Below are positions 5,857 to 24,767 of a DNA stretch of 32,696 nucleotides, piece by piece. Source of the stretch: a virus. Position 1 is the stretch's first letter. Each line of letters opens with the position of its first letter. The translations under genes were made by a program, and so were the position numbers. The stretch spans positions 1-32,696 of IMG/VR virus record IMGVR_UViG_3300032182_000245; one strand, written 5' to 3'. The notes below the pieces were generated by a model. It was not told the DNA's origin. It searched no databases and saw nothing but the letters and a program-made list of their open reading frames with translations.

Positions 5857-6756
5857 ATGGTAGTAAGAAACAATTACGCAAGACAAAAATCCTATTGGGG
5901 TGGTATTCCTGGTACTATCCAGATTCATACTGTTCCTGGTCTGGGGTTTAACAATGACCCTACAACTGCTGTGTTTAGGGACAACCTACCAGCAGGATTT
6001 TTGAAGTGTGATGGTACAGTTCAGAACGTCAAGGATTACTACCTCTTGGCCCAGATTCTTGGTATCGGTGACGAGTCGAGATTTAAAAAAGAAACAACTA
6101 ATGTAAGAAATGCTGATGCAGAAACTGGAGATCTAGGACAGTTCCAACTACCTGATCTGGGATCTAAAGTAATCATTGGCAGTAGAGGATCTGGTGAATA
6201 TATCTCTACAACAATGGAGAATGACCCTGGTAGGAGTAAAGTAGGTGTAGAAGTTTCTCCCCAGTCAAACATTGGTGATAGGGCAAATATCAACTACATT
6301 GGAAACATGCAAATTAGTGGAGCTAACGCTAATTTTAACGGTGTTCCAAAATATAATCTTCCCCGAGATACAAGTGCATACTCTCTCGCTATTGACGAGT
6401 TTCAAGGTCACTACCACAACGTAGGTGGTGATCAAGGTTTTGTTAGATTAAACTTTACGGGAGAGCATGACATCAGTGGACAAGGTAAAGGTGATGATGC
6501 AAACAGTGCAAATGCTTCTGCTGGTAACTCACTAGAAGAAACATCATTGAACGTTCAGGATCCTGGATCAACAACTCACGACCATACGATTACTAGACCA
6601 TATAACTATACTAGTAACTTCGCATACTCTTTTCCGACTACTAATCTTGATATCAGTGACATGACATCATATGTTGATGTTGATATCGAAGATTTAGATC
6701 TTTTAAATCAAGTAGTCACTCCTTTTATTTTAGTTCACTATATCATTAAGTTTTAA
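5857..6756 (+). CDS. Second tail-collar-domain fibre protein
   Basis: A 299-residue protein whose ATG follows the previous stop by one base. Residues about 40-75 (LPAGFLKCDGTVQ, YYLLAQILG) repeat the collar pattern, and a PDLGSKVIIGSRGSG segment follows, as in gp12-like fibres. Two HxH pairs are present (H185/H187 in GHYHN and H241/H243 in THDHT), and the C-terminus HYIIKF matches its neighbour. It is shorter than the gene before it and probably a diverged paralogue. Together the two may form a heteromeric short fibre or baseplate attachment. Identification as a collar-type fibre is good; the subunit arrangement is unknown. Confidence 0.82.
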   Translation: MVVRNNYARQKSYWGGIPGTIQIHTVPGLGFNNDPTTAVFRDNLPAGFLKCDGTVQNVKDYYLLAQILGIGDESRFKKETTNVRNADAETGDLGQFQLPDLGSKVIIGSRGSGEYISTTMENDPGRSKVGVEVSPQSNIGDRANINYIGNMQISGANANFNGVPKYNLPRDTSAYSLAIDEFQGHYHNVGGDQGFVRLNFTGEHDISGQGKGDDANSANASAGNSLEETSLNVQDPGSTTHDHTITRPYNYTSNFAYSFPTTNLDISDMTSYVDVDIEDLDLLNQVVTPFILVHYIIKF

Positions 6757-6759
6757 GAT

Positions 6760-8340
6760 ATGGGACGTATATGTTATATCTACACTAGTAGCACAGGATA
6801 TAATGTCCCAAGTGCCACTAAATGTATTTGCTATTTCGCTGTTGGTGGTGGCGGTGGTGGAGCTTATCCACAACAGGTACGTGGTCTCTCACCTCAAGCA
6901 GGTGGATCTACTTATTATTCTGCTGGTGGACCATTTGCTGGAGGCGGTGGACCTGGAAACTATGGTCAAGGTGGATCTGGTGGATATGGTAACTATGCAT
7001 ATGGTTCAAATGGATATCTAAACTATAGTGGTGGTGGCGGTGCTAGAGCAAGTTCTGGATATGGACCTTATGGACAGGGTGGTGCTGGACAGTGGAGATC
7101 TGGTAGCATCTCTGCTGGTGGTGGCGGTGGCGGTGCCTCAAGGTCAACTGTAGCAAGAGGATGTAGTGGAGCTATTCCTGGTCAGTATGTAAGCTGGACT
7201 GTTGGTTCTGGTGGAAGACAGGGTGGTACTGGTACTTGTAGATATGGTATCAATGGTGCTGTTTATATCAGCGTGTGTACATATGATCCACCGAGTCCAA
7301 GTATTACAGCAACTCCATTAGCATTTAGAAGAAATGGATCTGATGGTAGTGATGGTACGGTAGATTTAACATGGTCCACTAGTGGTGGAGAATCTACATC
7401 AGAAATTTTGGAAAGATTAGATATCGATGGTAACCTGGAAGAGAGTTATGGACAAGTCAATAGAAATCAAGAGTCTCCTCCGTTTGTAGTAGCACCAGTT
7501 GAGAGTTCTATTTTTAGACTGACGACATCAAATCCAGCATATACTCGAAGTGATAGTGTTACCGTATATGTTTATCAAGAACCTGTAGTAACTTTGATCA
7601 CACAAAATGATACTATTGTACGTGGACAGAGCACTAATATTTCATGGAGTGTGGAAGGTGATGCAGACACATTCACTGTTAGTCCTGGTATAGGTCAGTC
7701 AAATTTATCTGGCAATCAAAATGTAAGTCCAACGGTAAACACCATATATGTTGGGGTTGCATCTGGACTGGGTGGAACTGGTTCTAGTGAGCTAGAAATT
7801 ACTGTATTACAACCACCAACAATAACTGCTGCTGGACCTTTGAATGTTCTCTGGGGACAAGGTATTCCCGTGAGCATAGAAGCCACTAATGCCCCAGGTG
7901 GGATTAGTTATGTCGCAACATACTATTACACCGATGGCTCATCGGCGGTACAACCTTCTGTTGACATTCCTAACAGCGTAGGAGATGAGGTAAATATTCA
8001 GGCATACACTATTGGTATTAATTATGATGATACATTACCTCTGCCATTAGGACCAGAATCTGTAGATTTATTGTTCACGGTAGATGGATATGGGGATCTG
8101 ACTGCTACATTCCCATTAACTATGCCTATTATCATTGATGAAACACCAAATGTTATAGACATCCCAGAATCGGACGATACGTTTAAGGATGAAAATCCTG
8201 TTGTTACGCCTGATGTGGAAGTTACAACACAACAAATTGTGGTTGATGATATCGACATCCCTGTAGAAATCAAAGCTGACTATCCTATTCAGGTCGAGAT
8301 AGATAATGGTGGAACATATCAAGATGTGAGGCAAATCTGA
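6760..8340 (+). CDS. Adhesin-like protein 1: polyglycine head, Ig-like stalk, conserved tail
   Basis: First of five tandem paralogues, 526 residues. Residues about 28-165 are a glycine-rich head with runs such as GGGGGGA separated by short variable loops, the layout seen in polyglycine-sandwich receptor-binding adhesins such as T2/S16 gp38. The head has several cysteines (for example C22 and C24). About 170-457 is a stalk of three Ig-like units, the second starting VTLITQNDTIVRGQS and the third after the VLQPPTITAAGPL linker. Residues 458-526 are the family tail, containing DIDIPVEIKADYPIQVEID. It starts three bases after the previous gene and its TGA overlaps the next ATG (TGATG). Receptor binding is inferred from fold-level resemblance and context. 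Confidence 0.78.
   Translation: MGRICYIYTSSTGYNVPSATKCICYFAVGGGGGGAYPQQVRGLSPQAGGSTYYSAGGPFAGGGGPGNYGQGGSGGYGNYAYGSNGYLNYSGGGGARASSGYGPYGQGGAGQWRSGSISAGGGGGGASRSTVARGCSGAIPGQYVSWTVGSGGRQGGTGTCRYGINGAVYISVCTYDPPSPSITATPLAFRRNGSDGSDGTVDLTWSTSGGESTSEILERLDIDGNLEESYGQVNRNQESPPFVVAPVESSIFRLTTSNPAYTRSDSVTVYVYQEPVVTLITQNDTIVRGQSTNISWSVEGDADTFTVSPGIGQSNLSGNQNVSPTVNTIYVGVASGLGGTGSSELEITVLQPPTITAAGPLNVLWGQGIPVSIEATNAPGGISYVATYYYTDGSSAVQPSVDIPNSVGDEVNIQAYTIGINYDDTLPLPLGPESVDLLFTVDGYGDLTATFPLTMPIIIDETPNVIDIPESDDTFKDENPVVTPDVEVTTQQIVVDDIDIPVEIKADYPIQVEIDNGGTYQDVRQI
8131..8340 (+). repeat. Conserved adhesin tail module, copy 1
   Basis: Encodes the last 69 residues of adhesin 1 (from IIDETPNVIDIPESD to YQDVRQI). 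All five array genes end in this module, which contains an (I/V)PESDD-type acidic stretch, P(V/I)(V/I)(T/S)P, DIDIPV and ADYPIQVEID. The DNA at 8278-8304 is identical to that at 9973-9999. A constant tail with variable heads suggests a shared assembly or attachment interface. Confidence 0.85.
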
Positions 8341-10034
8341 TGCCAAATTTTTCTGCGAATAGATATGGATCATATTCAGTAACCGTTCCTGCATATGCAA
8401 TAAACGTTAGATTTTCCATCGCGGGAGCCAGCGGTGGTGGATCTAGATCTAGTACAGGTGGATGGGATTGGAGTAATGGTGGAAGTGGAAGAGCTGGTGA
8501 TTTTAGATTAAAAAGCAGGACGTATGATTATACTTTAACGTTTCACCTTGGACAGCAGGGTGGAAAGGGCAATGGACCAGCACTAGAGGGTAGAGGAGAC
8601 GGTGGATCATCTGCTATCGCTTCAGGTGGCAGAGGACACAGATCAGGTGGTGGAGGTGGCGGCGCTTCTGGTGTCTATGATGGTGGTTTGAATAGATATG
8701 TTGTCATTGTTGGTGGCGGTGGCGGAGCTGGCAGATATAACCTTGATACTGGTGTTAACGGACAATATTCTGGTGGTCGTGGCATCGGCGGCGGCGGAAC
8801 GACAGGAAACTTTTCTGGACAAAACGGTCAAAATGCGGCTGCTGGACACCGAGGTGGAGGTGGGGGTGGATCTAACGTTGGTGGATCTAACATGGGTGGT
8901 TATCAAACCACCAATGGATATGCTGGTATTGGTGGTAACTCTGCTTGGTATAACGATAGTAATTATTATGACTGGACTACAAATAGTGGATATGCTAACC
9001 AAGGAGACGGATATTATAATTTAAATTTTGAATATGCTCCACCAACAGTGCAGTATTTTATTGTAACACCTCAACAAATACTCCAAGGTGATAATGCAGA
9101 ACTATCTTGGTCTGTTCAAGGTGTCTACAATAGAATTAATATCAATGGCGATCCTGTATTCACTAATGTAGAACGTCAAGGTACGCGAGATATCAATCCG
9201 ACAATAGATACTACTTATTATCTGGACGTAACTGGTCCTGGCGGATCTGCTAATGTGCCAGTAAGTATTGATGTTCTTGTCCCACCAGATGTTACGTTGT
9301 TCTCTGATGCTCCCAACAATACTATTGTTTTAGGAGAATCTGTTAACTTAAACTGGACTATAACTGGAGATGTTTCTACTGCTCAAATGACACCTGGAGT
9401 TGGTGAAGTCAATATTAGCGGTGGTCCAGTAACAGTATCTCCCACTATCAACACAGTATATACACTTACTGCTTCTCATCCTCTTGCTGGACAAGACTCT
9501 GATCAGGTTGAGATTATTGTATTACAACCACCAACGGTAAGCTTAAGTGGTCCTTTGAGTGTAGATTATGGACAGAACATCACAGTGTCTATTGAAGCAA
9601 CAAATGCTACTACTTCATTGCAGCTTCTAGCAATATATCACTATGAGGATAATCCTGGATCTTCTTACGAAATAGTTGAAGAGTTTGGAGTGGCAGAGCA
9701 ATTTAATGGTCAAGAGGAACTTATTGTTCCTTACACTGATTTTGGACCTAATCGTATTGAATATAGATTATATGCTATTGGAGCGGGCGGATTGACTGAT
9801 GAGGCTGATATTGAAGTTGACATTAACATTGATAGAACTCCTGATGCTTTATCTGTTCCTGAAGTTGCCGATGCAATCAAGAACGAAGATCCAGTTATTT
9901 CACCAGATCAAGAAGTAACTTCAGTTCAGTTAGTTGTGGATGATATTGATGTTCCAGTTAAAATCAAGGCCGACTATCCTATTCAGGTCGAGATAGATGA
10001 TGACGGTGTTTATAGAAATGTTGAGGAAATCTGA
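8340..10034 (+). CDS. Adhesin-like protein 2: polyglycine head, Ig-like stalk, conserved tail
   Basis: A 564-residue paralogue overlapping its neighbours at both ends (TGATG at 8338-8342 and at 10032-10036). The head (about 1-232) opens with a beta-rich stretch ending in RFSIAGASGGG, then alternates polyglycine runs (GGGGGGAS, GGGGGAG, GGGGGGS) with Tyr/Asn-rich loops. Three Ig-like units follow, at about 236-320, 321-400 and 401-494, joined by Pro-Pro linkers such as LQPPTVSLSGPLS. Residues 496-564 are the shared tail (DIDVPVKIKADYPIQVEID). The DNA encoding the end of the tail is identical over 27 bases to that of adhesin 1. No signal peptide or membrane segment is seen, as expected for a virion protein. 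Function is by analogy with phage adhesins. Confidence 0.78.
   Translation: MPNFSANRYGSYSVTVPAYAINVRFSIAGASGGGSRSSTGGWDWSNGGSGRAGDFRLKSRTYDYTLTFHLGQQGGKGNGPALEGRGDGGSSAIASGGRGHRSGGGGGGASGVYDGGLNRYVVIVGGGGGAGRYNLDTGVNGQYSGGRGIGGGGTTGNFSGQNGQNAAAGHRGGGGGGSNVGGSNMGGYQTTNGYAGIGGNSAWYNDSNYYDWTTNSGYANQGDGYYNLNFEYAPPTVQYFIVTPQQILQGDNAELSWSVQGVYNRININGDPVFTNVERQGTRDINPTIDTTYYLDVTGPGGSANVPVSIDVLVPPDVTLFSDAPNNTIVLGESVNLNWTITGDVSTAQMTPGVGEVNISGGPVTVSPTINTVYTLTASHPLAGQDSDQVEIIVLQPPTVSLSGPLSVDYGQNITVSIEATNATTSLQLLAIYHYEDNPGSSYEIVEEFGVAEQFNGQEELIVPYTDFGPNRIEYRLYAIGAGGLTDEADIEVDINIDRTPDALSVPEVADAIKNEDPVISPDQEVTSVQLVVDDIDVPVKIKADYPIQVEIDDDGVYRNVEEI
9825..10034 (+). repeat. Conserved adhesin tail module, copy 2
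   Basis: Encodes the last 69 residues of adhesin 2. It matches copy 1 closely in protein and exactly over the 27 bases at 9973-9999, the longest identity I found between copies. The end YRNVEEI resembles copy 4 rather than copy 1. Confidence 0.85.
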
Positions 10035-11611
10035 TGACAGGTCCTATTGGTTCTTTACTCCGATTCAACGAGTATTACAACAACAGTACAACTAATCACT
10101 TTTACACTGCATATCCACAGTTTGAAAACCTTTCTGGTTATTTTTTAAACGTCTCTGACAAGTGGGCTTTGTTCCAAAGTTCTAGTTCTGCTGGTATAGT
10201 AGGATCTGTTTCTGCTGTATACAGATTGTATAGATCTGTCAGTTCTACACAGCAGGCACACTTTTATACCACTAGTCAAACTCAAATTAACAATGCTGTA
10301 GCTGGTGGATATACTAATGAAGGTGTCGTTGGATATGCATACACTAGCAGTGGATCGAATCGTTATGCTGTCTACAGATATTACAGTGCAGTAGATGACT
10401 CTCACTGGTACGAACAACGTCAAGACATTGCTGCTCTCTTCCCTAACTATGTTTATAAACAAGTTGCGTGGTATTCTCCTACACTAGTATATGGATGTAC
10501 AGATTCTAATGCAACTAACTACAACTCATATGCAAATCAGAACAGTGGATGTCAATACTTCATTTATGGATGTACTGATCCTAATGCATCTAACTATGAT
10601 CCTAGTGCAAATACAGACAATGGAACATGTAGTTATCCAACACCAATCATCAGCATAAGTTTATCTCAAAATTCTATTATTCAGGGAGGATCTTCTACGT
10701 TATCATGGACTATTTTCAATTCAACTGGTCAATCAATATCTAATATAGGATCTGTTGCAGCATCTGGTAGTACACCAGTTTCTCCTAGTTCTACTACCAC
10801 ATACACTGCTACTGCAAATTATTATTCATATACTACCGCCACACAATCTGTAACTCTAACAGTCTACGAACCAGTTATTGCTAACATGACAGTAGATGAT
10901 ACTACTATTATTAGTGGACAGGGAACTGTATTGAGATGGGATGTGCAAGGTGATGCATCTACAGCAGATATACAGCCAGGAATTGGGTCTACTAATTTAA
11001 ATAGTTTCCAAAATATTTCTCCGACACAAACTACCACATATACCTTATCAGCGTCTGGTCCTGGTGGAAGTGATAGTGCTCAAGTTACTGTAACTGTATT
11101 ACCAGCACCGTCAGTTAGTATAAACGGACCTCTTTCTGTTCAGTATGGATCTGTAGCAACACTTTCATATGAAGGCACGAATGTGACACAATCACTTGTC
11201 ATTATTCCAACTTACTATGACTTGGATGGTAATCAAGTTGATGGCGATCCTATTGCGTTACCAACAGGTGATGCTGTAAATGGTAGTATTGATATTACAA
11301 CTATTACATGGGGAGATAGAGGACCAAGTTCTATAGATTTCGCTATATTAGGAACTGGTGCTGGTGGATTGACTGCCAATGATGTTCACCTAGTATCAGT
11401 TATTATTGACCAAACGCCTGATTTTATTGATATTCCAGAATCAGATGACAAGATAAAAGATGAGACTCCAGTTGTTACTCCTGATGCGGAGATTAATACA
11501 TTGACTTTATCTGTAAATGATATAGATATACCAGTAGAAGTCAAAGCTGACTATCCTATTCAGGTACAGATAGATGATAATGGAAACTATCAAGACGTAA
11601 GACAGATTTGA
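10034..11611 (+). CDS. Adhesin-like protein 3: DUF5648-like head plus GCTD repeats on the shared stalk
   Basis: A 525-residue paralogue with the same stalk and tail but no polyglycine head. Residues about 10-150 resemble DUF5648, a beta repeat found in secreted and surface proteins: the phrases NHFYTAYPQ, AHFYTTSQTQINNA and GYTNEGVVGYAY recur in that pattern. Two Cys-bearing repeats follow at about 152-203 (YGCTDSNATNYN and YGCTDPNASNYDPSA), a pattern common in surface proteins of marine bacteria. Three Ig-like units (about 206-456) and the tail (457-525, with KADYPIQVQID) match the siblings. Overlap with the previous gene is a TGATG junction, and one base separates it from the next. The head appears to have been exchanged as a unit. 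DUF5648 is assigned from pattern memory. Confidence 0.75.
   Translation: MTGPIGSLLRFNEYYNNSTTNHFYTAYPQFENLSGYFLNVSDKWALFQSSSSAGIVGSVSAVYRLYRSVSSTQQAHFYTTSQTQINNAVAGGYTNEGVVGYAYTSSGSNRYAVYRYYSAVDDSHWYEQRQDIAALFPNYVYKQVAWYSPTLVYGCTDSNATNYNSYANQNSGCQYFIYGCTDPNASNYDPSANTDNGTCSYPTPIISISLSQNSIIQGGSSTLSWTIFNSTGQSISNIGSVAASGSTPVSPSSTTTYTATANYYSYTTATQSVTLTVYEPVIANMTVDDTTIISGQGTVLRWDVQGDASTADIQPGIGSTNLNSFQNISPTQTTTYTLSASGPGGSDSAQVTVTVLPAPSVSINGPLSVQYGSVATLSYEGTNVTQSLVIIPTYYDLDGNQVDGDPIALPTGDAVNGSIDITTITWGDRGPSSIDFAILGTGAGGLTANDVHLVSVIIDQTPDFIDIPESDDKIKDETPVVTPDAEINTLTLSVNDIDIPVEVKADYPIQVQIDDNGNYQDVRQI
11402..11611 (+). repeat. Conserved adhesin tail module, copy 3
   Basis: Encodes the last 69 residues of adhesin 3, ending YQDVRQI like copy 1. 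The core at 11549-11575 differs from copies 1 and 2 at two of 27 bases. This copy sits behind the non-glycine DUF5648-like head, which shows that head and tail vary independently. Confidence 0.85.
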
Positions 11612-11612
11612 T

Positions 11613-13334
11613 ATGCCAGATCTATACACTACAACCACATCAATCTTACCCATTCCAGAAAATACAAAGCGTATTGTTTTTACAATACAAGGTGCGGGTG
11701 GTGGTGGAGAGTATATTAACAGAGTTAGTGGATTGCCAGCAGCAGGAACAGACGGTGAGGATACAACTTTCCTGGGAATGACTGCTGGTGGTGGCCGCGG
11801 CGGTGGTATTGGTGGAAGAAATTTGGCAGGCGATGGAGGAGTGGCATCCACAGGAAATTTTGATTACTCTAATCCACTATCACCAGGAACTGTTGTTGAT
11901 TTGAATGATGGTCAGAGTGGTCAAGTAAATGCTGGCGGTAATTCTGGAGGAACAACACCAAACAGAGGAAATGGTGGCAATGGTACAAGTGATCAAGTGA
12001 AATATGTATCTACTGTCACTCATATCTTCACAAATTCTCCGCCATATTTTGTTGGACAAATTGACAATAGTCCTGATATTACAGTAGAAGTTAAAAATCC
12101 TTCTACAACTGGTGCTCCGTGTGGAACATATTCGTGGTCTAGGCACTACTTAATTAAATTTAACTTTCCATTTGATGATACTTCTTATCAACCCAGAATA
12201 AACAATCCATATCCAACACAAACAGCTGCTGGCGGCAACTTCAGTGGATATGCACAGTTTGGGGCAAAAACTACTGATGAACTTGGTGTGTGGTGGTGTA
12301 AACAAAAAGTTTCTGGTCCTGGAACAGTTAATAGTTTTGTTCGTAGTTTTATTTTAGAGGTAGAAGGAAAAAGAAGCTCTCTAAAAGGTAGAGGTGGTGG
12401 TGGCGGTGCTGAAATCACTGGCACTATTGACCGTCTAGATCTATCTACAAGAGGATTGTTAGATACAAACACCGAATTGTTAATTGGTACTGGGGGTCAG
12501 GAGAATGGTGCTACTAATCTAGCGCCATTTGCAGCAGATGGTGAGAATGGTGCTGCTAGTGTATACATTGAGTATGAGACGAGAACATACATCAATGTAA
12601 AAAACAATGAAACAAACACAATCGTTCTGGGTCAGAGTGCTATTATTGAATGGAGAGTTACTGGTGATGCTGATTGGGCTTTGGTAGAACCAGGAATCTC
12701 GCCGCAAGGATCTAACTTCATCAGTGAAGTAACAGTAACTCCTACAGTGACAACTGAATACTTTGTTCGTGCTGATGGTGTGATTGGTGGGTCTTCAGAA
12801 TCATCTGTTATTCTTACTGTCATTCAACCACCAACAGTAAGTCTTGACGGACCTGTTGAATCTGATTATGGTAACAATATTACACTATCATATGAAGCTA
12901 CACAAATAGGAACTTCACTGACACTTCGTCCTGTATTTTTCTTCCTTGATGGATCTACTGTCACTGGTGATCAATATAATGTGTCACTACCTATTGGTGA
13001 TGATTTGAATGATACTATTGAGTATGATCTGACACCTTGGAGTGGTCTGGGACCATATCGAATTGAGTTTAATTTGGATGCAGTTGGATATGCTGGATTG
13101 ACACAAACTACACTCTTTCCTTTACAAATTAATATTGATACCAATCCAGATCTTATTATCATACCAGAAGCAGAAGCTTTCAAAGACCAAGACCCTGTTA
13201 TTTCTCCATCACAAGAATCTTTAATAAAAGTAGAGGTCACTGATATAGATATACCAGTACCTGTTAAATCAGATTCACCTGTTAAAGTTGAGATTGATGA
13301 TAGCGGTCTTTTTACTAATGTAGAGGAGATATAA
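11613..13334 (+). CDS. Adhesin-like protein 4: interrupted glycine head, Ig-like stalk, diverged tail
   Basis: A 573-residue paralogue. The glycine-rich head (from IQGAGGGGEY, about residue 28) is broken at about 126-265 by a glycine-poor insert rich in aromatic residues that contains two cysteines (C170 in APCGTYSW, C229 in WWCKQK). Glycine runs then resume (GRGGGGGAEITG). Only two Ig-like units are evident (about 328-505), one fewer than in the siblings. The tail (507-573) is the most diverged copy, with VPVKSDSPVKVEID replacing VEIKADYPIQVEID. Its stop TAA (13332-13334) overlaps the ATG of the next gene. The insert may be an extra binding domain; I do not recognise it. Confidence 0.75.
   Translation: MPDLYTTTTSILPIPENTKRIVFTIQGAGGGGEYINRVSGLPAAGTDGEDTTFLGMTAGGGRGGGIGGRNLAGDGGVASTGNFDYSNPLSPGTVVDLNDGQSGQVNAGGNSGGTTPNRGNGGNGTSDQVKYVSTVTHIFTNSPPYFVGQIDNSPDITVEVKNPSTTGAPCGTYSWSRHYLIKFNFPFDDTSYQPRINNPYPTQTAAGGNFSGYAQFGAKTTDELGVWWCKQKVSGPGTVNSFVRSFILEVEGKRSSLKGRGGGGGAEITGTIDRLDLSTRGLLDTNTELLIGTGGQENGATNLAPFAADGENGAASVYIEYETRTYINVKNNETNTIVLGQSAIIEWRVTGDADWALVEPGISPQGSNFISEVTVTPTVTTEYFVRADGVIGGSSESSVILTVIQPPTVSLDGPVESDYGNNITLSYEATQIGTSLTLRPVFFFLDGSTVTGDQYNVSLPIGDDLNDTIEYDLTPWSGLGPYRIEFNLDAVGYAGLTQTTLFPLQINIDTNPDLIIIPEAEAFKDQDPVISPSQESLIKVEVTDIDIPVPVKSDSPVKVEIDDSGLFTNVEEI
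13131..13334 (+). repeat. Conserved adhesin tail module, copy 4 (diverged)
   Basis: Encodes the last 67 residues of adhesin 4. The layout is kept (PEAEAFKDQDPVISPSQE, DIDIPVPVKSD, VKVEIDDSG), but the DNA core at 13272-13298 is clearly diverged from the other copies. Confidence 0.8.
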
Positions 13335-15061
13335 TGCCAACTCTTAATTACGGAACTGGTAATCACTCTGTTACTGTGAGTGAGAGATGGATTAACATCC
13401 TCATAACTGTTGCTGGTGCCCAAGGTGGTAACGGTGGATCTGATGGTGGTATTCCTGGTGGCACACGCGGATATGGAAGAAGAGGCACATTTAGATTAGA
13501 AGGAAGTAATTCTGCTGCTACTGGTGTGGCTAGAACACTCACTCTTCGTGTAGGTAGTCAGGGAGGAAACGGATTTGGGTGTGTGGCAAATGGTGGTAAT
13601 GGAGGTGGTGGTAGCTCTGGTGTGGCTAGCGGTGGGTCTGGCGGTAGAACTGGTCCGCAGGGGTGTTCTGGCGGCGGCGGTGGCGGCGGTGGTGCTACTG
13701 GCGTATTTGATAGTTATTCAGGTATGTATATTATCCTCGCAGGTGGCGGCGGTGGAGCAGGCGGTGGATCTTTTCCTGACTCTTGGTTGAGAGGTGGCAA
13801 CGGCGGAAACGCTGGTAATTTTTCTGGAACCATCCGTAGTATTTCTAGCGGTGGTACAGGATCGTCTCAAGGATTTGACGGCGGCGGCGGAGGCGGCGGC
13901 GGTGGAGGTGCCTCTGGTGGTGGCGGTGGTCGCCAAGGTGCCGATGACCGCGCTGGTAGGTATCCATCAGGTGGTGGAGGTGGCGGCGGAAGTTACTATG
14001 TAACATCATATACGACTTATTACAGTGGACAGGGAGCCAACTATTCAAATGGATATGTGACCATTACATATGATCTTGCTAATCCAGAAGTTACTTCTCT
14101 AACTACATCTGATTCTGCTATCATTAGAGGCGAGACAGTAACAGTTTCTTGGACTACTAGTTATCCACAGTTTATCTCATCTCTAATTCTTACATCTCCA
14201 GATGGAAACACATACAATGTTACTGGAACTACTTCAATAGATCTGCAACCACAACAAACAGGAAACTGGTCAATGACTGCATACTACAGTGGTGGCACTC
14301 ATGATAGAACTGCATTCCAAACTGTTTATATTCCACCAGTAGTTACTTTGTCTCTCGATGAAGAAGCAATGCCCCGTGGAGATAGTACGATATTGAGATG
14401 GAATACAACTGGTGATGCAGATACAGTAAATATTACTCCTGGTATTGGACCATCAAACATAACTTCTTTTGTCACTGTAAATCCAACAGTTACAACTACA
14501 TACACTGCTGTGGCTTCGGGTCTTGGTGGTACAGATTCAGATGAGATTACTTTGACTGTGTGGCAACCACCAGATGTATCTCTCGCTGGACCACTGACAG
14601 TAAACTATGGACAACAGTTTATATCTCTATCTCATTCGGAAGTTAATTCTGATATAAGTTATCGACTGCAAGTGATTGCTACAGATTTAGATGGTCTTGT
14701 AACAAATGAGACGTTCGATATTGATCGATCAACATCAACATATGCATATGCACCGACATGGACTAATCGTGGACCATCGAGTTTCAACTTTAACTTGACT
14801 GGTATTGGTCTTGGTAACTTACAAGATACTGCTAGTATTCTAGTCTATCCTTATATTGACCAGTTACCAGATCCTGTTGACGTTCCTGAATCTGAAGATA
14901 CTCTCAAAGAGGAAGAACCAGTCATCACACCTGACGTAGAGATTACTACAGAGCAACTTTCTATTGATGACATTGACATTCCAGTGGAGATCACGGCCAA
15001 CTATCCTATTCAGGTAGAGATAGACAACAGTGGAACCTTCATAGATGTGCGTCAAACATAG
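13334..15061 (+). CDS. Adhesin-like protein 5: longest polyglycine head, Ig-like stalk, conserved tail
   Basis: A 575-residue paralogue, last of the array. The head (about 1-248) has the longest glycine runs in the window (GGGGGGGGAT, GGGGGGGGGASGGGGG) separated by loops. The encoding DNA contains GGC/GGT/GGA triplet tracts at 13671-13692 and 13880-13910. Three Ig-like units follow (about 250-505) with the usual Pro-Pro linkers (VWQPPDVSLAGPL). The tail is residues 507-575 (DIDIPVEITANYPIQVEID). It ends TAG, immediately before a late promoter motif, so this gene closes the transcription-linked array. The architecture again suggests a virion adhesin; direct evidence of receptor binding is absent. 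Confidence 0.78.
   Translation: MPTLNYGTGNHSVTVSERWINILITVAGAQGGNGGSDGGIPGGTRGYGRRGTFRLEGSNSAATGVARTLTLRVGSQGGNGFGCVANGGNGGGGSSGVASGGSGGRTGPQGCSGGGGGGGGATGVFDSYSGMYIILAGGGGGAGGGSFPDSWLRGGNGGNAGNFSGTIRSISSGGTGSSQGFDGGGGGGGGGGASGGGGGRQGADDRAGRYPSGGGGGGGSYYVTSYTTYYSGQGANYSNGYVTITYDLANPEVTSLTTSDSAIIRGETVTVSWTTSYPQFISSLILTSPDGNTYNVTGTTSIDLQPQQTGNWSMTAYYSGGTHDRTAFQTVYIPPVVTLSLDEEAMPRGDSTILRWNTTGDADTVNITPGIGPSNITSFVTVNPTVTTTYTAVASGLGGTDSDEITLTVWQPPDVSLAGPLTVNYGQQFISLSHSEVNSDISYRLQVIATDLDGLVTNETFDIDRSTSTYAYAPTWTNRGPSSFNFNLTGIGLGNLQDTASILVYPYIDQLPDPVDVPESEDTLKEEEPVITPDVEITTEQLSIDDIDIPVEITANYPIQVEIDNSGTFIDVRQT
13671..13692 (+). repeat. GGN triplet tract in adhesin 5 head
   Basis: Near-pure GGC/GGT triplets encoding an uninterrupted glycine run. 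A similar longer tract lies at 13880-13910. Such triplet runs can slip without breaking frame. Confidence 0.8.
13880..13910 (+). repeat. Longest GGN triplet tract in adhesin 5 head
   Basis: Consecutive GGC/GGA/GGT codons giving about nine glycines, followed by Ala-Ser and a further glycine run to about 13930. It is the most GC-rich short segment in the late half of the window. Confidence 0.8.
14852..15061 (+). repeat. Conserved adhesin tail module, copy 5
   Basis: Encodes the last 69 residues of adhesin 5. The core at 14999-15025 differs from copy 1 at three of 27 bases. It ends FIDVRQT where copies 1 and 3 end YQDVRQI. Confidence 0.85.
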
Positions 15062-15090: not shown

Positions 15091-15117
15091 ATGGCAAGCG
15101 GTAACTATATTCCATGA
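15091..15117 (+). CDS. Eight-codon leader ORF (MASGNYIP) overlapping the fibre start
   Basis: An ATG 18 bases after the late promoter core opens a frame of eight codons (MASGNYIP) whose TGA overlaps the ATG of the 1350-residue fibre (ATGA, 15114-15117). A GGGAA sequence 9-13 bases upstream could act as ribosome-binding site here, whereas none is visible just before 15114. It may act by termination-reinitiation, or be the remnant of a displaced start. Chance occurrence cannot be excluded. Confidence 0.35.
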   Translation: MASGNYIP

Positions 15118-18100
15118 CATATTCTTTTTCTAATACACCAGTATATGTAAGCGAGGGACAAACAGTACGCTTTAAATTTAAAGCGCCCTCGCAGTGGAAT
15201 ACTACTCAAAGTGTCACCATTCAGATTGGTGATCAGCAGACAATCTGGTATATTACAACAATTCCAGAGGATTTTGCTCCTGATCCATTTCCGTTTACAC
15301 CTCTTGAGGATGCGGATTCCAATGTAATGTATGTGTATGGTGATGGAACAAGACCTGGAGAAGATATTGTTACTGTATCTGGTCTAACTCCAACCACAAC
15401 AGCATCTGTAACTCTAACTGGTAGTCTTGCTGCACAGATTGATAATTTCTCTGTCAGAATCAAACGTGTAAGTCAAGGCGAAACAGAATTTGGCGCATGG
15501 ATAATTCCTAGTGGAGAAGTTGCTGTAGAGAATACTGATGAACTTCAGTTACGATTAAGATCCAACACTGCTGCTGGACTCAATACTTTTGCTGATCTTT
15601 CTATCGGTGCTAGAGTAGAAAGATGGACGATTGGTACGGAAGTTCCACCACCAAACATTCCAGAACCATTCCCTGATTTTGATGATATCACCAACGTTCC
15701 TTTAAATAAAGACGTTTATAGTAATATTTTACAGGTTCAGGGATTAAGTGATACTGCTTTAATTACCGCATCAAATACAGATCTTTATGTTGGTATTTCT
15801 AGCAGTAATGCAACGTTTACTACTGCTGATGGATATGAGATTCTGCAGAATACTGGTGGAACATCGAAGTATGAACAGATTGGCCTTGAGTCTTACGTCA
15901 GCACACACTTTGCACCAATAACATTCCTCCAAGCACTAGATGATACCACTGGTGGTGGTAACCAACCAACATGGTTGCAAGATTATGTCACTGCTGTTCA
16001 AGCAGTCCCAGGTAATGCTACAGCAACTCTCACAACAGTTGCTACTGGTGGACACAATGCATTTACAACAGATGCTACATTACAGGCAGCAATTAGAACT
16101 GCTGTAGGATCAACTGATCCTGGTGTTATTACAACTGCAACATTTGATATTGTCCCTGATGATGGAGAGACTGCAACTATTGATGGTACATCATACCCAG
16201 TTGCAGGTTCCTTATATGTTCCTACAGGTCTAGCAGATGCTTCGGTTGATGTTGTAGTTCTGTTCCACGGAACTCTTACCGAGGGAGGCACTTCAACTAT
16301 TGCTCAAGCAGCATCAGATATGCTTACCAGATTTACAGATACTAGTTCTACTAATATCAATGTAAGAGACAAAATTATCTTCTCTGTTGCATATCCTCAA
16401 GATCATATTTCTGCTTCGAGACAGTATAATTTGCCTGATGTTGGTACAGAAAATGCAAACTTCTTAATGGGTGATAACTTACCCTATACAAGAGCAGCAG
16501 TTGAATGGGTTAAGAACTCTTTGGATGCATATATTACAGCGCAAGGTGGTACTAAAACCGTTAATGATATCTATCTGTTTGGTCACTCTCAAGGGGGTAA
16601 ACTTGTTTCCAAGATCAATACTTTAGATGATGGTATTGCTGGTGTTATTGCAGACTCTCCTGGTCCTATTCAACTAGACCAAACTTGTTCTATCGCTGCA
16701 AATCAAGCAGGTACAACATGCTCAAAGATTGCTGCAATTTATGGTGTCCCTGGTTCACAGGCAGTACCATTCTATCAAGTCATCGGCCCTAATTATCCAA
16801 CAATCAACAACGGAGAATATCTACAACTTCGTCTCCGTTCTGAAAATACTGCTGGGGCACAAACAACCACGTCACTTGGTATTGGTGACGAACCAGATGG
16901 ATCCAACTGGTCAATTACTACAGGTAACTTCCCATCCACAACACCAGATAGCTTTGTCTTCCAGAATGTCACTGATGTGCTAGAAGATTCATTGATTGGT
17001 TCTGATCCACGACCACTACCCAATGGCATTACAGGACTAGGAACTGGTACTGAAGTTGATGTTACTCTTGTAAGTTCAACTGGTACTCAACCTAGAATTA
17101 AAATCCAGTATGCCGAGGGTGGTGAGAGTTCTATCGGATTGTTCCCAACCAAAGTGAACAATGGTGATAAGATTATTCTCTACAACAAATCATCTGCTAC
17201 ATTTGGTGGATCTGTACAAATGCAGATTAAAGTTGGTGATTTTATTCCTGATCCATGGCTGATTGTTACTAACACTGGTCCCGACACTGATGCTGACTTT
17301 GTTGCACCAAACAACTTGGTGAATCAAGTACCAAACACACAGGTTGTAAGCTCTATTGTATCTGTTAGTGGTATCAACAGACCAATCACAATTTCTGCTA
17401 CAAATGGTGCGCTGATCTCGATTGATTTTGCTACTCCTACATCATCTACAGTAACATTTGATCCAGCAGTAAATGATTCTTTCCGTGTCTTTATTCAAAG
17501 TGCCACTGGATTATCTGGTCAAGTAAGTACAACCGTTACGGTGGGTACGGGAAGCCCAAACCAATTTATTTGGCAGGTCAGTAACTATGCTGTTGCTCCA
17601 CCACCACCAGATCTCAAAGGTGCGTGGTACAGTAAGAAGAATGCACTTGTAGATTCTAATGGTGATATTATTGAGAGTAAGGATGATGGACATTCTATCG
17701 GTACAGTTGTCCCTGTTCTTAAGAGACCTGATGGAACTTATGGTACACTAGATGGTGAACTAAATTCTAGATTCCCAGGTTATCTTGAGTGTGATGGTGA
17801 ACTGTATGATGCTGCAGATTATCCTGATCTGTATGAAGTCATTGAAGAAACGTATGGTGGTACGGGTGTAAGCTATGACGCCTCAACTAAAGTATATACA
17901 GGACAGTTTAGAGTTCCTGATTTAAGAAATAGAAAACTAGTTGGTACTGGTGTTGTTGATGGCAACAGAGCATCATCTGCATTCCCTCCAGTTGATGCTG
18001 GTGGTAGTATCTACGAGCCTGGTGGTATTGGTGGATGGTGGTATGTTGATGATGTAGACGTTGCTGGTGATAATCCTTATGAGCAGATTCTAGGTGAAGC

Positions 18101-19166
18101 GGGTGGAACTACTGGTGTTACAAGTAACTTCTTCTCTCTAGGAACTGTTAAGACTGTATTTGATGCAGATCTCGTTGCTGATGTTGACTTTAGTATTACT
18201 GGTAGTGTAACAGCATTGATTGGTCCTCTACTTGATACATTGGTATCAGTTCCTCCACATACTCACCTGTATGTTACTGGACTGGTTGATGGTGTTAGTG
18301 GTGATCCATTAATTGAATGGACTGATAGAGGCATGGCAGCATTGCCTGGAGATGCTAGACTAGATGCCGATGGTAGTGCTGGACTTGGTGCTGCTCAACT
18401 TAATCCTTTCGGTGCATATGATGATGGTGTTGCAAAGGATGACACACAAACTATTGTTGACTTGTGGATGGCGGCATTAGCGACTCATGCACCAAACTTC
18501 CAACTTGAATGGGATGAAATTGATGGTGTCGATGATCTAGAAACAATCGTATTCCAGATGATTGGTGACATCCAAACTAAAGCATATAACGGTAGTCTAA
18601 ATGGTGCTGCTGGACCTGCCAACAGCGGTGGTGATGCTAACATGAGAGTAATGCAAACTCTAGTTGCAGAAACATGGTGGCCATCACCATATAGTGTAGT
18701 CAGTGATAATTACTTCTTCCAAGTTTCTACTGTTAATAATTCTAGCACTGGTTTTTATGGTGTAGATGGCGGTTCTGGAGCTAGACAAGTTACTGGTGTG
18801 ATTGACACTAACCAAAGATTTGTTAGAGTTGACTCATACACCCCACCAATTCTTGATGGTGACAGTGGTGCCACTGAATCTCACGCTCACCTTATTACAC
18901 TACAACCAGTTACTGACTTGACAGAAGACTATTCTTATGGTAATGTTAGTGGATGGGGCAGTGGAAGAGAAGGATTAGGTGCAGCACAAACAACACTCAA
19001 TGTAACATTCACCCAAGCTGAAGTTGGTATGGAACTGAACGTAGGAACATTCACTCTTAATACATCAATTAAGAAACCAATTCCTAACGTTGCGTTCTCT
19101 CCCAATAGAAAGGTTGAACTTTTACCCGAGTTCCACAAAGTTAAATATATAATCAAAGCATATTGA
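15114..19166 (+). CDS. Large tail-fibre protein with embedded alpha/beta-hydrolase-like segment and C-terminal collar domain
   Basis: A 1350-residue protein. About 1-270 is beta-rich, with a unit containing ELQLRLRSNTAAG and W(T/S)I. A hydrolase-like stretch lies at about 343-560: strand plus oxyanion-type motif VVVLFHG (380-386), nucleophile elbow GHSQGG with S492, and a candidate acid D514 (IADSPG). No convincing catalytic histidine follows before the fibre unit resumes with YLQLRLRSENTAG. Further beta units run to about 865. A collar domain begins about 887 (FPGYLECDGELYDAADYPDLYEVI), with HxH pairs H1049/H1051 and H1257/H1259, and the protein ends KYIIKAY like the other collar proteins. 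It is driven by the late promoter at 15066. Fibre identity is good; esterase or depolymerase activity is a hypothesis. Confidence 0.78.
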   Translation: MTYSFSNTPVYVSEGQTVRFKFKAPSQWNTTQSVTIQIGDQQTIWYITTIPEDFAPDPFPFTPLEDADSNVMYVYGDGTRPGEDIVTVSGLTPTTTASVTLTGSLAAQIDNFSVRIKRVSQGETEFGAWIIPSGEVAVENTDELQLRLRSNTAAGLNTFADLSIGARVERWTIGTEVPPPNIPEPFPDFDDITNVPLNKDVYSNILQVQGLSDTALITASNTDLYVGISSSNATFTTADGYEILQNTGGTSKYEQIGLESYVSTHFAPITFLQALDDTTGGGNQPTWLQDYVTAVQAVPGNATATLTTVATGGHNAFTTDATLQAAIRTAVGSTDPGVITTATFDIVPDDGETATIDGTSYPVAGSLYVPTGLADASVDVVVLFHGTLTEGGTSTIAQAASDMLTRFTDTSSTNINVRDKIIFSVAYPQDHISASRQYNLPDVGTENANFLMGDNLPYTRAAVEWVKNSLDAYITAQGGTKTVNDIYLFGHSQGGKLVSKINTLDDGIAGVIADSPGPIQLDQTCSIAANQAGTTCSKIAAIYGVPGSQAVPFYQVIGPNYPTINNGEYLQLRLRSENTAGAQTTTSLGIGDEPDGSNWSITTGNFPSTTPDSFVFQNVTDVLEDSLIGSDPRPLPNGITGLGTGTEVDVTLVSSTGTQPRIKIQYAEGGESSIGLFPTKVNNGDKIILYNKSSATFGGSVQMQIKVGDFIPDPWLIVTNTGPDTDADFVAPNNLVNQVPNTQVVSSIVSVSGINRPITISATNGALISIDFATPTSSTVTFDPAVNDSFRVFIQSATGLSGQVSTTVTVGTGSPNQFIWQVSNYAVAPPPPDLKGAWYSKKNALVDSNGDIIESKDDGHSIGTVVPVLKRPDGTYGTLDGELNSRFPGYLECDGELYDAADYPDLYEVIEETYGGTGVSYDASTKVYTGQFRVPDLRNRKLVGTGVVDGNRASSAFPPVDAGGSIYEPGGIGGWWYVDDVDVAGDNPYEQILGEAGGTTGVTSNFFSLGTVKTVFDADLVADVDFSITGSVTALIGPLLDTLVSVPPHTHLYVTGLVDGVSGDPLIEWTDRGMAALPGDARLDADGSAGLGAAQLNPFGAYDDGVAKDDTQTIVDLWMAALATHAPNFQLEWDEIDGVDDLETIVFQMIGDIQTKAYNGSLNGAAGPANSGGDANMRVMQTLVAETWWPSPYSVVSDNYFFQVSTVNNSSTGFYGVDGGSGARQVTGVIDTNQRFVRVDSYTPPILDGDSGATESHAHLITLQPVTDLTEDYSYGNVSGWGSGREGLGAAQTTLNVTFTQAEVGMELNVGTFTLNTSIKKPIPNVAFSPNRKVELLPEFHKVKYIIKAY

Positions 19167-19172
19167 TTTTAC

Positions 19173-19871
19173 ATGAGCAAAGCGAAGAAACAGACAACTC
19201 TTGGTACTTCAAGCAGCAATGATCTTGCTCCTTACAGACCACTAGAGTTGATGCGAAATGAGAAACTAACTAAAGTCGAATTTAATGATTTCATTGCTGT
19301 TTGGGAAAAGTTTGTTCCAGACGCATTTTGTGATCAACTCATAGAATATGGTGAGTCATTTATCAATGAGGTGAATGGGCACACTATTTCTGCGTCTGAT
19401 GTTGATATCATGGAAGGTTCTGCCATGTATGGTGGTAACTTAAGGAGAGATGATACTGCATTTTTGGTGAACTATGCTAGTGATAAGTGGGCTACCCAGA
19501 TCAACCAGTTCCTTAAGGCTTGTGCTCAACATTATTGCAGTGAGTATTCGCAGTTACTAAATGTGCCAATGACATCGATGGACATTAAATTCCAGAAGAC
19601 TGAACCTGGGGGTGGATATCATCTATGGCACTATGAAAATGCTTCTTCTGGATTTTCACAGAGAGAACTAACATGGATGATCTATCTTAATGACATTGAT
19701 GATGGTGGTGAAACAGAATTCTTATATCAAAAGCGTAGAATCAAACCACAAAAAGGAACAGTAGTTATTTTCCCTGCTGGTATGACTCACGTACATAAGG
19801 GTAATCTTGTTATGGGAGACCGTGATAAATACATAGTGACAGGATGGTACATTAAAGCTGGGTCAAATTAA
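19173..19871 (+). CDS. 2-oxoglutarate/Fe(II)-dependent oxygenase, prolyl-4-hydroxylase type (1 of 4)
   Basis: A 232-residue protein starting six bases after the fibre gene. The core carries YHLWHYEN (H150, H153, E155), LTWMIYLNDIDDGGETEF, a KGTVVIFPAGMTHVHKGN segment with H206/H208, and KYIVTGW. This is the double-stranded beta-helix pattern of P4H-like dioxygenases. The usual HxD iron-binding pair appears as H153-x-E155, a variant I associate with phage members. Such enzymes hydroxylate protein side chains, nucleic acid or small molecules; the substrate here is unknown. Its TAA overlaps the next ATG (TAATG, 19869-19873). Position directly after the fibre genes raises the possibility that fibre proteins are the substrate. 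Confidence 0.85.
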   Translation: MSKAKKQTTLGTSSSNDLAPYRPLELMRNEKLTKVEFNDFIAVWEKFVPDAFCDQLIEYGESFINEVNGHTISASDVDIMEGSAMYGGNLRRDDTAFLVNYASDKWATQINQFLKACAQHYCSEYSQLLNVPMTSMDIKFQKTEPGGGYHLWHYENASSGFSQRELTWMIYLNDIDDGGETEFLYQKRRIKPQKGTVVIFPAGMTHVHKGNLVMGDRDKYIVTGWYIKAGSN

Positions 19872-20815
19872 TGACAACACAACTCGCTAGAAGTGCAACA
19901 TTAGAAGTTGACTTTCAAAACAAAATCATTAACGACACTAGTGCCAGAGTGTTGTTGCCAGATGGTAGAGAATATGTTCCTACTGTCTCTCTATCTGGTG
20001 AGATGATGGATCGCTTCAAAGAAGAAGCACTTGGTGAGTTTTGGCACACAGAGAATGATCAGATACAAGCGTTGTTCTTCTATAGTGACAACTACTTGTA
20101 CTGTCAGAGAAAGAAGAAGAAGTTTGATTTTGCTCAACAACAGCAAGTATATAGCACGTATACTTTCACTGGTTACACAGAAGAGCAAGTTATTGAGCTG
20201 GAGAAGAAAGTAAGGAATTTCATTACTGCTCAAAATACAGCAAGACTATATGATGTAGAGGCACGTCTTCAGAAGATTGACGAAGAGTTCTTATTCTTCG
20301 AGTCTACTTGGTTGAAGCGAATGAATGAAAAGAATTCTATTCTCGCTGTCACCGACTGGCGCATGAGTCCTGACGTAGAAGAGAAATATGAGGGTGAAAG
20401 AGATCTGTGGGTTAGATATAGACAAGAGATTAGAAATCTCAAGTTTGGTGAACCAAGAGATTATCCAACACCACTTGATTTCTTCCGAGCAATCAAGACA
20501 TTTAAGTTTCCTATCGATCCAAAGTTCTATAGAGAAGCATATCCTGATGGCCTAGACAAAGATGGCAATGCTGTTGCATATCTGTCAACTGATGATCAGT
20601 GGGTGTCAAGAGATACTGATTCTTCTAGAGATTTGATTGAGTCTAGATTGACTAATATCTCTACAATGAGACAGAACTATCTTCAGAGTAAGAAAGTCGT
20701 CTCTACTGAAGTTAAGGAGATGATGAAACTATTGAGACTTGAGGACTTTGTTGAAGCGGGTATTGATTACACGCAAATTTATACTGAAGAGGACGTTAAT
20801 GATTTGGTTGACTGA
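19871..20815 (+). CDS. Putative tail-fibre assembly chaperone-like protein
   Basis: A 314-residue protein overlapping the oxygenase stop by one base. Residues about 151-190 (NSILAVTDWRMSPDV, then W-x-x-Y183-R-Q and IRNL) resemble the core of phage tail assembly chaperones encoded next to fibres, whose pattern is R-x-x-L-L-x-x-T-D-W-x-x-x-P-D-V followed by W-x-x-Y-R-Q-x-L-R. Family members are usually nearer 130-200 residues, so this one has long extensions: an N-terminal region (1-90) with a charged KKKKFDFAQQQQ stretch, a probable helical segment (about 95-140), and a C-terminal part from about 200. The place after five adhesins and a fibre fits a folding or attachment role. The call rests on one motif and context. 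Confidence 0.55.
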   Translation: MTTQLARSATLEVDFQNKIINDTSARVLLPDGREYVPTVSLSGEMMDRFKEEALGEFWHTENDQIQALFFYSDNYLYCQRKKKKFDFAQQQQVYSTYTFTGYTEEQVIELEKKVRNFITAQNTARLYDVEARLQKIDEEFLFFESTWLKRMNEKNSILAVTDWRMSPDVEEKYEGERDLWVRYRQEIRNLKFGEPRDYPTPLDFFRAIKTFKFPIDPKFYREAYPDGLDKDGNAVAYLSTDDQWVSRDTDSSRDLIESRLTNISTMRQNYLQSKKVVSTEVKEMMKLLRLEDFVEAGIDYTQIYTEEDVNDLVD

Positions 20816-23270: not shown

Positions 23271-23293
23271 GGGGGTTGACGAACCCCCTTTTT
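23271..23293 (+). terminator. Rho-independent terminator
   Basis: Perfect seven-base-pair stem GGGGGTT/AACCCCC with loop GACG followed by TTTTT, nine bases after the TAA of the 321-residue protein. The stem and loop also contain the -35 box of the next promoter (TTGACG, 23276-23281). Confidence 0.88.
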
Positions 23294-23304
23294 CATGCCA
23301 TACT
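23276..23304 (+). promoter_or_regulatory. Sigma70-like promoter embedded in the terminator, for the helicase
   Basis: TTGACG (23276-23281), a 17-base spacer, then CATACT (23299-23304). The helicase ATG lies 22 bases downstream. The -35 hexamer forms the top of the terminator hairpin, so the end of the late unit and the start of the next unit are physically fused. Confidence 0.6.
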
Positions 23305-23326
23305 GTATTCACATCAGACATACAGT

Positions 23327-24580: not shown

Positions 24581-24581
24581 T

Positions 24582-24767
24582 ATGTACGAAGAACTAAACT
24601 GCTTTGAAGAAGCACTCAAACACTTTGGCACTAGAGTAGAAATCATCTGTGCTATGGAATTAGCACAGCGTATCAGTGCCGAAGATGCCTACCAAATGAT
24701 CAAGGATGAGATGAAGGCCGTCAAGAAATGTCGCAAGCATTACAACCAGAATGAATCCTGTGATTAG
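24582..24767 (+). CDS. Unrecognised 61-residue protein
   Basis: A mostly helical, charged protein (CFEEALKHFG, AMELAQRISAEDAYQMI) beginning one base after the helicase stop, so probably expressed with it. No known motif. Three cysteines are present (C7, C24, C50), plus one near the C-terminus. The following 71 bases (24768-24838) contain no gene; an AT-rich ACATATTAC could be a weak -10. Confidence 0.55.
   Translation: MYEELNCFEEALKHFGTRVEIICAMELAQRISAEDAYQMIKDEMKAVKKCRKHYNQNESCD

Follow-up and report, generated by a model that had tools for sequence, protein, structure and literature searches.

A 32.7-kb contig of IMG/VR (record IMGVR_UViG_3300032182_000245, positions 1 to 32,696, here called the window) was found to belong to a T4-like cyanophage and to contain an array of five adhesin-like genes, g1 to g5, at positions 6760 to 15061. 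Among named phages, its closest relative is Synechococcus phage S-CAM3 (Kyanoviridae, Charybdisvirus). A search of phage-record DNA with the whole locus matched S-CAM3 alone, over 6 to 7% of the query, and protein searches were therefore used. The genes encode proteins of 526, 564, 525, 573, and 575 amino acids, all lie on the plus strand, and follow one another end to start, each with an intact frame and with no broken copy among them. The T4-type late promoter motif ATAAATA occurs once in the window, below chance expectation, at a site outside the array.

Organization of the array

Alignment revealed a plan common to the five proteins, consisting of an N-terminal head, two or three immunoglobulin (Ig)-like domains, and a C-terminal tail of 66 to 68 residues. 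All five match the families PHROG 2155, 9770, and 29022 (E values for the best family of each gene, 1e-134 to 1e-174) over most of the protein; with matches at 1e-134 or better in every case, the likeness of the five genes is not due to chance. When the contig was searched with the g1 tail, only the five places in the array were returned.

The first gene, g1 (6760 to 8340; PHROG 2155 E value, 2e-134), has a glycine-rich head assigned by clustering to family H0 (6760 to 7293), three Ig-like domains, and a tail at 8134 to 8337. The same arrangement is found in g2 (8340 to 10034), for which the open reading frame, PHROG match, and head clustering define a glycine-rich head of family H1 (8340 to 9047), three Ig-like domains, and a tail at 9828 to 10031. 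The head of g3 (10034 to 11611) is of family H4 (10034 to 10633) and combines a DUF5648 domain (10073 to 10477) with two GCTD repeats (10490 to 10624); it is followed by three Ig-like domains and a tail at 11405 to 11608. In g4 (11613 to 13334; PHROG 9770 E value, 5e-165; weak Gly_rich_2 match), the head of family H5 (11613 to 12587) is glycine rich and split by an insert, and two Ig-like domains precede a tail of 66 amino acids that lies inside the aligned span 13128 to 13331. Finally, g5 (13334 to 15061) has a head of family H6 with a predicted TNF-like and glycine-rich fold (13334 to 14080), three Ig-like domains, and a tail at 14855 to 15058. The g1 and g2 head borders were set by alignment, and the tails by alignment together with the g1-tail search.

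An earlier note, made from the DNA letters alone, had described five adjacent genes with differing heads, and the reading frames, the glycine profile, the PF18885 match, and the PHROG matches all agree with this. The common tail of about 69 residues and the shared Ig-like units that it also described are likewise confirmed. A related tail is present in all five proteins, at 66 to 68 amino acids; the tails of g2 to g5 are 47 to 72% identical to that of g1 and thus form one family without being identical. Between paralogues, identity over the last two Ig-like domains is about 37 to 43% (whole stalks, about 40%); g4 has two Ig-like domains, and the others have three.

Composition and predicted folds of the heads

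The heads of g1, g2, and g5 contain 30%, 29%, and 36% glycine, respectively, compared with 6 to 9% in the remainder of the proteins. The glycine-rich head of g4 is broken by a 125-residue stretch with 9% glycine (about 12003 to 12377), and residues 14 to 148 of g3 correspond to PF18885 (DUF5648; E value, 9e-16), followed by the two GCTD repeats, which belong to family D8. One genome thus carries several different heads, five in the window, as had been proposed. Clustering yielded about 20 head families, including several glycine-rich families, DUF5648 with GCTD, other GCTD, DUF4114-like, von Willebrand factor A (vWA)-like, and PA14-like families. In Pfam searches of the other heads, DUF4114 was matched weakly by H2 and PA14 by the giant protein of ACG-2014e; the H7 head has a vWA-like DxSGS motif that was recognized by eye only and gave no Pfam match.

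AlphaFold2 models of g3 and g5 were built as single chains, g5 being the sole glycine-rich head that was folded. The g5 model (predicted local distance difference test [pLDDT], 83) comprises the head (residues 1 to 249), three Ig-like domains, and an unsettled tail. Its residues 1 to 249 matched the TNF-like/glycine-rich domains of ALK and LTK with Z scores of 15.5 to 16.2 (root mean square deviation, about 3 Å; 181 to 193 aligned residues; about 30% identity), followed by a clear step down to unrelated proteins at a Z score of 10.7, and the tail-tip protein of Bxb1 scored 9.8. An hmmsearch comparison of the g5 head with ALK gave an E value of 0.004 over residues 12 to 137, to which the glycine-rich composition may contribute, and a search with the single sequence gave no match. 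The g5 head is accordingly modeled, and so far predicted, to be an ALK-like TNF-like/glycine-rich domain. In the g3 model (pLDDT, 80), the Ig-like domains alone found matches, and the DUF5648 head was without a fold match.

The comparison with gp38, the polyglycine adhesin of T2 and S16, on which the earlier note had drawn, proved imprecise. The gp38 plan places polyglycine at the C terminus and gp37-binding helices at the N terminus, whereas the glycine-rich domain of the array proteins is N-terminal and their C terminus is made up of the Ig stalk and tail. The gp38 structure (6F45) was absent from the listed fold matches of both the g5 model and the Ig string, and the g5 head with its Z score of 16 is predicted to be of the kind found in gp24 of cyanophage Pam3, in which a TNF-like/glycine-rich module is the proposed host-binding part (PMC9608196).

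A conserved slot in Synechococcus phages

The array lies in a slot with fixed edges. Its left border is a tail collar protein gene (PHROG 4714; 5857 to 6756, plus strand), and its right border is a short tail fiber gene, here called stf740 (PHROG 4924; 15114 to 19166, plus strand); a tail assembly chaperone gene (PHROG 4697; 19871 to 20815, plus strand) is conserved downstream. Wherever both borders are on the contig, tail-bearing genes sit between the collar gene and stf740, both in the reference phages (S-CAM3, S-CAM1, S-PM2, Syn1, S-RIM32, S-RIM44, S-H9-2, ACG-2014e, -i, and -j, Sf-FP1, and Sf-CH1a) and in 68 IMG/VR loci (compared loci carry numbers with the prefix L). The 47 complete slots, which are partly redundant, hold one to six array genes in 25 combinations of head families, six being found in S-CAM3. 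The slot of S-MbCM7 (ACG-2014h) is empty, and its chaperone gene is kept. Within the phage collection, 49 records contained array genes, 59 the collar gene, and 57 the C-terminal part of stf740; every one of these is a marine cyanophage, and almost all are phages of Synechococcus. The array recurs regularly within one clade of Synechococcus T4-like phages (Kyanoviridae); it is indeed outside the standard T4 plan, as the earlier note had it, being absent from T4, but it is not peculiar to this phage.

The slot has been annotated without function in S-PM2, Syn1, S-CAM1, S-CAM3, and others (T4-GC 737 to 739, 1047, and 1048 in S-PM2 and Syn1). When S-PM2 was compared with the passaged S-PM2d for selected mutations in the array, the two deposited regions proved identical over 26.5 kb. 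Ten virion structural proteins with one distribution across nine cyanophages, which may or may not coincide with the array genes, have been reported (Sullivan et al., PMC3037559). In ACG-2014e and ACG-2014j US23, two tails occur in one open reading frame of about 1.8 thousand amino acids, corresponding to fused cassettes. The reading frames with two complete tails measure 1,789 amino acids at L016 (3332 to 8701) and 1,861 amino acids at L018 (6261 to 11846), and each joins two cassettes in frame.

The location of the slot bears on the possibility that the array proteins are capsid decorations of the Hoc type, that is, strings of Ig-like domains, bound to the capsid by the C terminus, that stick the virion to surfaces, and not tail adhesins. 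PHROGs places the three families in its head and packaging category, and the Ig string does match Hoc of RB49 (3shs), although among many other Ig proteins and hence not specifically. The families are named only "virion structural protein," a generic label, and in all annotated relatives that were fetched the genes are bounded by collar and short tail fiber genes beside a tail chaperone, within a tail fiber block, while the array tail itself resembles a fiber repeat (see below). We regard a Hoc-type role as highly improbable; the array proteins probably act as adhesins, which would be displayed on the virion and bind receptors.

Exchange of heads in front of a constant tail

Direct cases of head exchange were found in S-RIM44, which occurs as two types with three sequenced examples each (type 1, Np_42, Sn_13, and Np_20; type 2, the Syn1-like Sn_08, W2_10, and W2_07). 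The flanks of the two types are 97.4 to 98.7% identical, yet the middle array gene encodes either 486 amino acids with a PA14-like head or 884 amino acids with a glycine-rich head. No DNA match is found upstream of the last approximately 86 codons of this gene, and the last approximately 40 codons are identical (30 of 30 per window of comparison); the first array gene has also diverged between the types (85% nucleotide identity). Between ACG-2014j US103 and US23, the differing block begins with the gene itself and stops at the first tail codon, with flanks of 92 to 94% identity.

Relative to L025, 3.06 kb is missing from L050, with sides matching at 94% and 93%. The third gene of L050 is chimeric: the H4 gene and the last gene meet in it at codon 350, which falls between Ig2 and Ig3. 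Of the informative sites, 429 of 447 to the left of this break and 193 of 206 to its right agree with the respective parent. The 3 kb was apparently lost when paralogous stalks recombined. Furthermore, one stalk and tail (77 to 100% amino acid identity per 30-residue window) is found beneath three different head types, in L047_g2, L050_g3, and L025_g5, the final array gene in all three cases. From these comparisons it is very likely that heads, or heads with their stalks, have been replaced in front of the constant tail in natural relatives.

Homogenization of tails within genomes

The tail by itself is too short to give a trustworthy tree, and the analysis relied on sliding windows, permutations, and shared tracts. 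Across 21 genomes, Ig3 is clearly more similar between orthologues than between paralogues, whereas in the tail the similarity of paralogues within one genome equals or exceeds that of orthologues from other genomes (in the window, 0.66 versus 0.59 over columns 180 to 205). Within-genome tail identity was 0.648, compared with 0.574 after permutation (standard deviation, 0.005; reached in 0 of 1,000 permutations). The choice of codon at identical tail residues, which is synonymous, showed the same (0.587 versus 0.528 permuted), and Ig3 was much less affected. Genomes were swapped within head classes without regard to their relatedness, and part of the tail signal is therefore at the level of clades. 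Exact DNA tracts of at least 25 nucleotides are shared by 23.5% of 153 paralogue pairs, compared with 1.2% of 5,107 cross-genome pairs, the longest being 92 nucleotides.

The tail, then, follows the genome and not the head. Within-genome tail identity, codon choice, and long exact tracts together indicate that recombination within genomes homogenizes the tails and parts of the stalks, an effect to which selection for a common partner may contribute.

Recombination between paralogues would also be expected if only one or a few of the genes were expressed on the virion and the others served as a genomic store for recombination. The five intact end-to-start frames speak against such a store, and the homogenization suggests that all of the tails meet the same partner; we consider it very unlikely.

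Gain and loss of whole cassettes among close relatives

Within the group of the window, arrays are ordered subsets of H0-(H2)-H1-H4-H3-H5-(H6/8/9/12), such as 0-1-4-5-6 in the window, 0-1-6 in L023, and 0-1-4-3-5-12 in S-CAM3; the absence of g3 and g4 from L023 is an example of whole-gene loss or gain. Orthologues of the window and L020 are 82%, 80%, and 89% identical in head, Ig-like domains, and tail, respectively, with similar values elsewhere, and a simple head swap on a fixed stalk, which was looked for among the nearest relatives of the window, was not found. Among close relatives, head and stalk thus mostly travel together and change is mostly by gain and loss of whole cassettes.

This pattern raises the possibility that the five genes are fixed paralogues with separate and stable jobs, for several receptors or adsorption steps, and that exchanges are rare accidents. 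The order H0-H1-H4 and onward is maintained in the window, L020, S-CAM3, L025, and others, with orthologous heads and stalks moving together, and the heads evolve at about the pace of the stalks and neighboring genes. However, the number of genes and the head combinations vary among the complete slots as described above, closely related genomes differ in head content, and in 38 of 222 genes the Ig3 domain is nearer to that of another head class. Fixed paralogues are, in our view, an unlikely account of the whole. The proposal of the earlier note that the locus diversifies receptor-binding heads is supported in part. Fixed genes without head exchange, which that note had set against the proposal, are largely what close relatives show, while wider relatives do exchange heads on a constant tail (S-RIM44, ACG-2014j, L050, and L047/L025) and recombine the stalks and tails of paralogues.

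Resemblance of the tail to the short tail fiber

The second half of the tail can be aligned to the beginning of an Ig-like repeat (S-x-x-V-x-V-T-G-I-N-x-P-I-T-I; the shaft repeat at about 17322 to 17657) that lies within the N-terminal half of stf740. In three hhalign set-ups, the tail matched this repeat with P values of 4.6e-4, 1.2e-4, and 2.8e-4, compared with 0.16 to 0.53 for the reversed tail, Ig2, and Ig3 as controls and a best E value of 0.061 among 40 column shuffles. The match is suggestive of an array tail derived as a truncated stf740 shaft repeat. In Sf-CH1b (L102, 4691 to 11137), the slot proteins end in tandem whole shaft repeats of the stf740 type in place of the short tail, and stf itself is short, its N-terminal half having been lost; shaft repeats have apparently been transferred between genes there. 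The stf of S-MbCM7, with its empty slot, is without these shaft repeats. Docking of the tail on the stf740 fiber could follow from such a likeness and is put forward tentatively.

A different role for the common tail would be as an assembly handle, bound by the neighboring tail assembly chaperone or acting as an intramolecular chaperone, which would leave the heads free to vary. Constant C-terminal segments of phage fibers are often chaperones, a chaperone gene is close downstream in all annotated slots that were fetched, and confidence in the g3 and g5 models is lowest in the tail (pLDDT, about 40 to 70), as expected for a segment that needs a partner. S-MbCM7, however, keeps the chaperone with an empty slot, and the chaperone is therefore not specific to the array; moreover, the tail resembles a stf740 shaft repeat and no known chaperone. 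Searches of the PDB with the tail and with the chaperone gave no match. An assembly handle seems to us improbable.

Within stf740, an insert at about 16161 to 16667 has, by eye, an alpha/beta-hydrolase-like appearance with a GHSQGG motif and gave no Pfam hydrolase match. It is also present in L033, is absent from the shorter S-CAM3 homologue, and is possibly an enzyme within the short tail fiber. Two 2OG-Fe(II) oxygenase genes (PF13640; 19173 to 19871 and 20739 to 21431) flank the chaperone gene, as in most relatives, where annotation places such oxygenases and the chaperone downstream of the slot; they could modify fiber proteins. Further downstream (23276 to 24646), a minus-strand open reading frame of 445 amino acids overlaps almost fully with a plus-strand frame of 434 amino acids. 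The minus-strand frame gave no PHROG or Pfam match and is probably not a gene, because relatives have a helicase gene near there.

A proposed modular adhesin array

We favor, with somewhat better than even confidence, an explanation in which the locus is a modular adhesin array. In each protein, a string of Ig-like domains would carry a receptor-binding head at one end and, at the other, the common C-terminal tail, by which the protein would dock on the tail fiber complex, most likely on the Ig-like shaft of the neighboring stf740. Several heads are encoded at once and may be displayed together on the virion. Shared stalk and tail DNA would allow recombination among paralogues and with coinfecting phages. 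The set of heads could thereby change through gain, loss, or replacement without disturbing the fit of the tail to the resident fiber. In a bolder form, which we regard as possible yet doubtful, the cut-off shaft repeat would be both a protein plug and a DNA recombination handle, whatever head stood before it could attach to one and the same fiber, and the virion would be a mosaic of up to six unrelated receptor-binding folds, reshuffled in the population, with a polarity opposite to that of known multiadhesin phages.

Several observations weigh against a modular array. The tail resembles stf740 only modestly and over a short span of 35 residues. Two observations speak against a leading part in host range. 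S-MbCM7 has no array and yet infects WH7803, so that this phage-host pair, at least, can do without one. In a coculture of S-PM2 with WH7803 over 500 days, the mutations named in the main text fall in the flanking genes S-PM2d218, 219, 220, and 224, with none named in array genes 221 to 223; mutations 61 and 62 carry no gene assignment there (PMC9910659). The heads of close relatives diverge no faster than the stalks and only slightly faster than neighboring genes. Lastly, L050 is a single metagenome contig and its event could be a misassembly, an objection that the exchange in S-RIM44 escapes because these phages are isolates.

Comparison with known systems

The branched tail spike complex of the Ackermannviridae (TSP1 to TSP4 of CBA120, S117, and Det7; PMC11414711) is similar in having adjacent receptor-binding genes with a constant dock and exchangeable parts, provided that the array proteins do bind receptors. 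The recombination between neighboring genes that accompanies an added fifth spike gene (PMC11414711) is a close parallel. In contrast, the dock of those spikes is N-terminal (XD/TD, gp10-like) and their variable part C-terminal; the order is reversed in the array, the stalks are Ig-like, and the constant part, at the C terminus, is not of the gp10 type according to Pfam and PHROGs. The spikes form a physical complex on the virion, as the array proteins might. In gp24 of Pam3, a myocyanophage fiber, the proposed host-binding tip is of the kind predicted for the g5 head; however, gp24 is a single trimeric fiber with an N-terminal helical dock and a C-terminal tip, whereas the array domain is N-terminal on an Ig stalk and occurs in several genes (PMC9608196). 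The gp38 of T2 and S16 and the T-even distal fiber locus share glycine-rich modules and the swapping of specificity by recombination at conserved motifs (Tetart 1998, as cited in PMC6027323), but there is one adhesin per phage, bound by its N terminus to gp37, with no Ig stalk, array, or common C-terminal tail. By analogy, the array may be viewed as a known multiadhesin kind with reversed polarity, in which TNF-like/glycine-rich, DUF5648, and other heads stand on Ig stalks. No earlier description of the head, stalk, and tail plan or of the head exchange was found in the literature searched, the coverage of which was incomplete.

T4-like cyanophages are important killers of marine Synechococcus. 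According to an early review, they are without recognizable T4 long-fiber genes, and unassigned structural proteins may fill this role (PMC2984593). If the arrays are host-binding parts, candidate receptor-binding proteins would now be named for the whole clade, together with a readable molecular record of adhesin turnover. The natural allele pairs of S-RIM44, phages that are almost the same but for a marked difference at one locus, would allow a direct comparison of adsorption. The exchange of heads is probably a way for these phages to keep pace with changing hosts.

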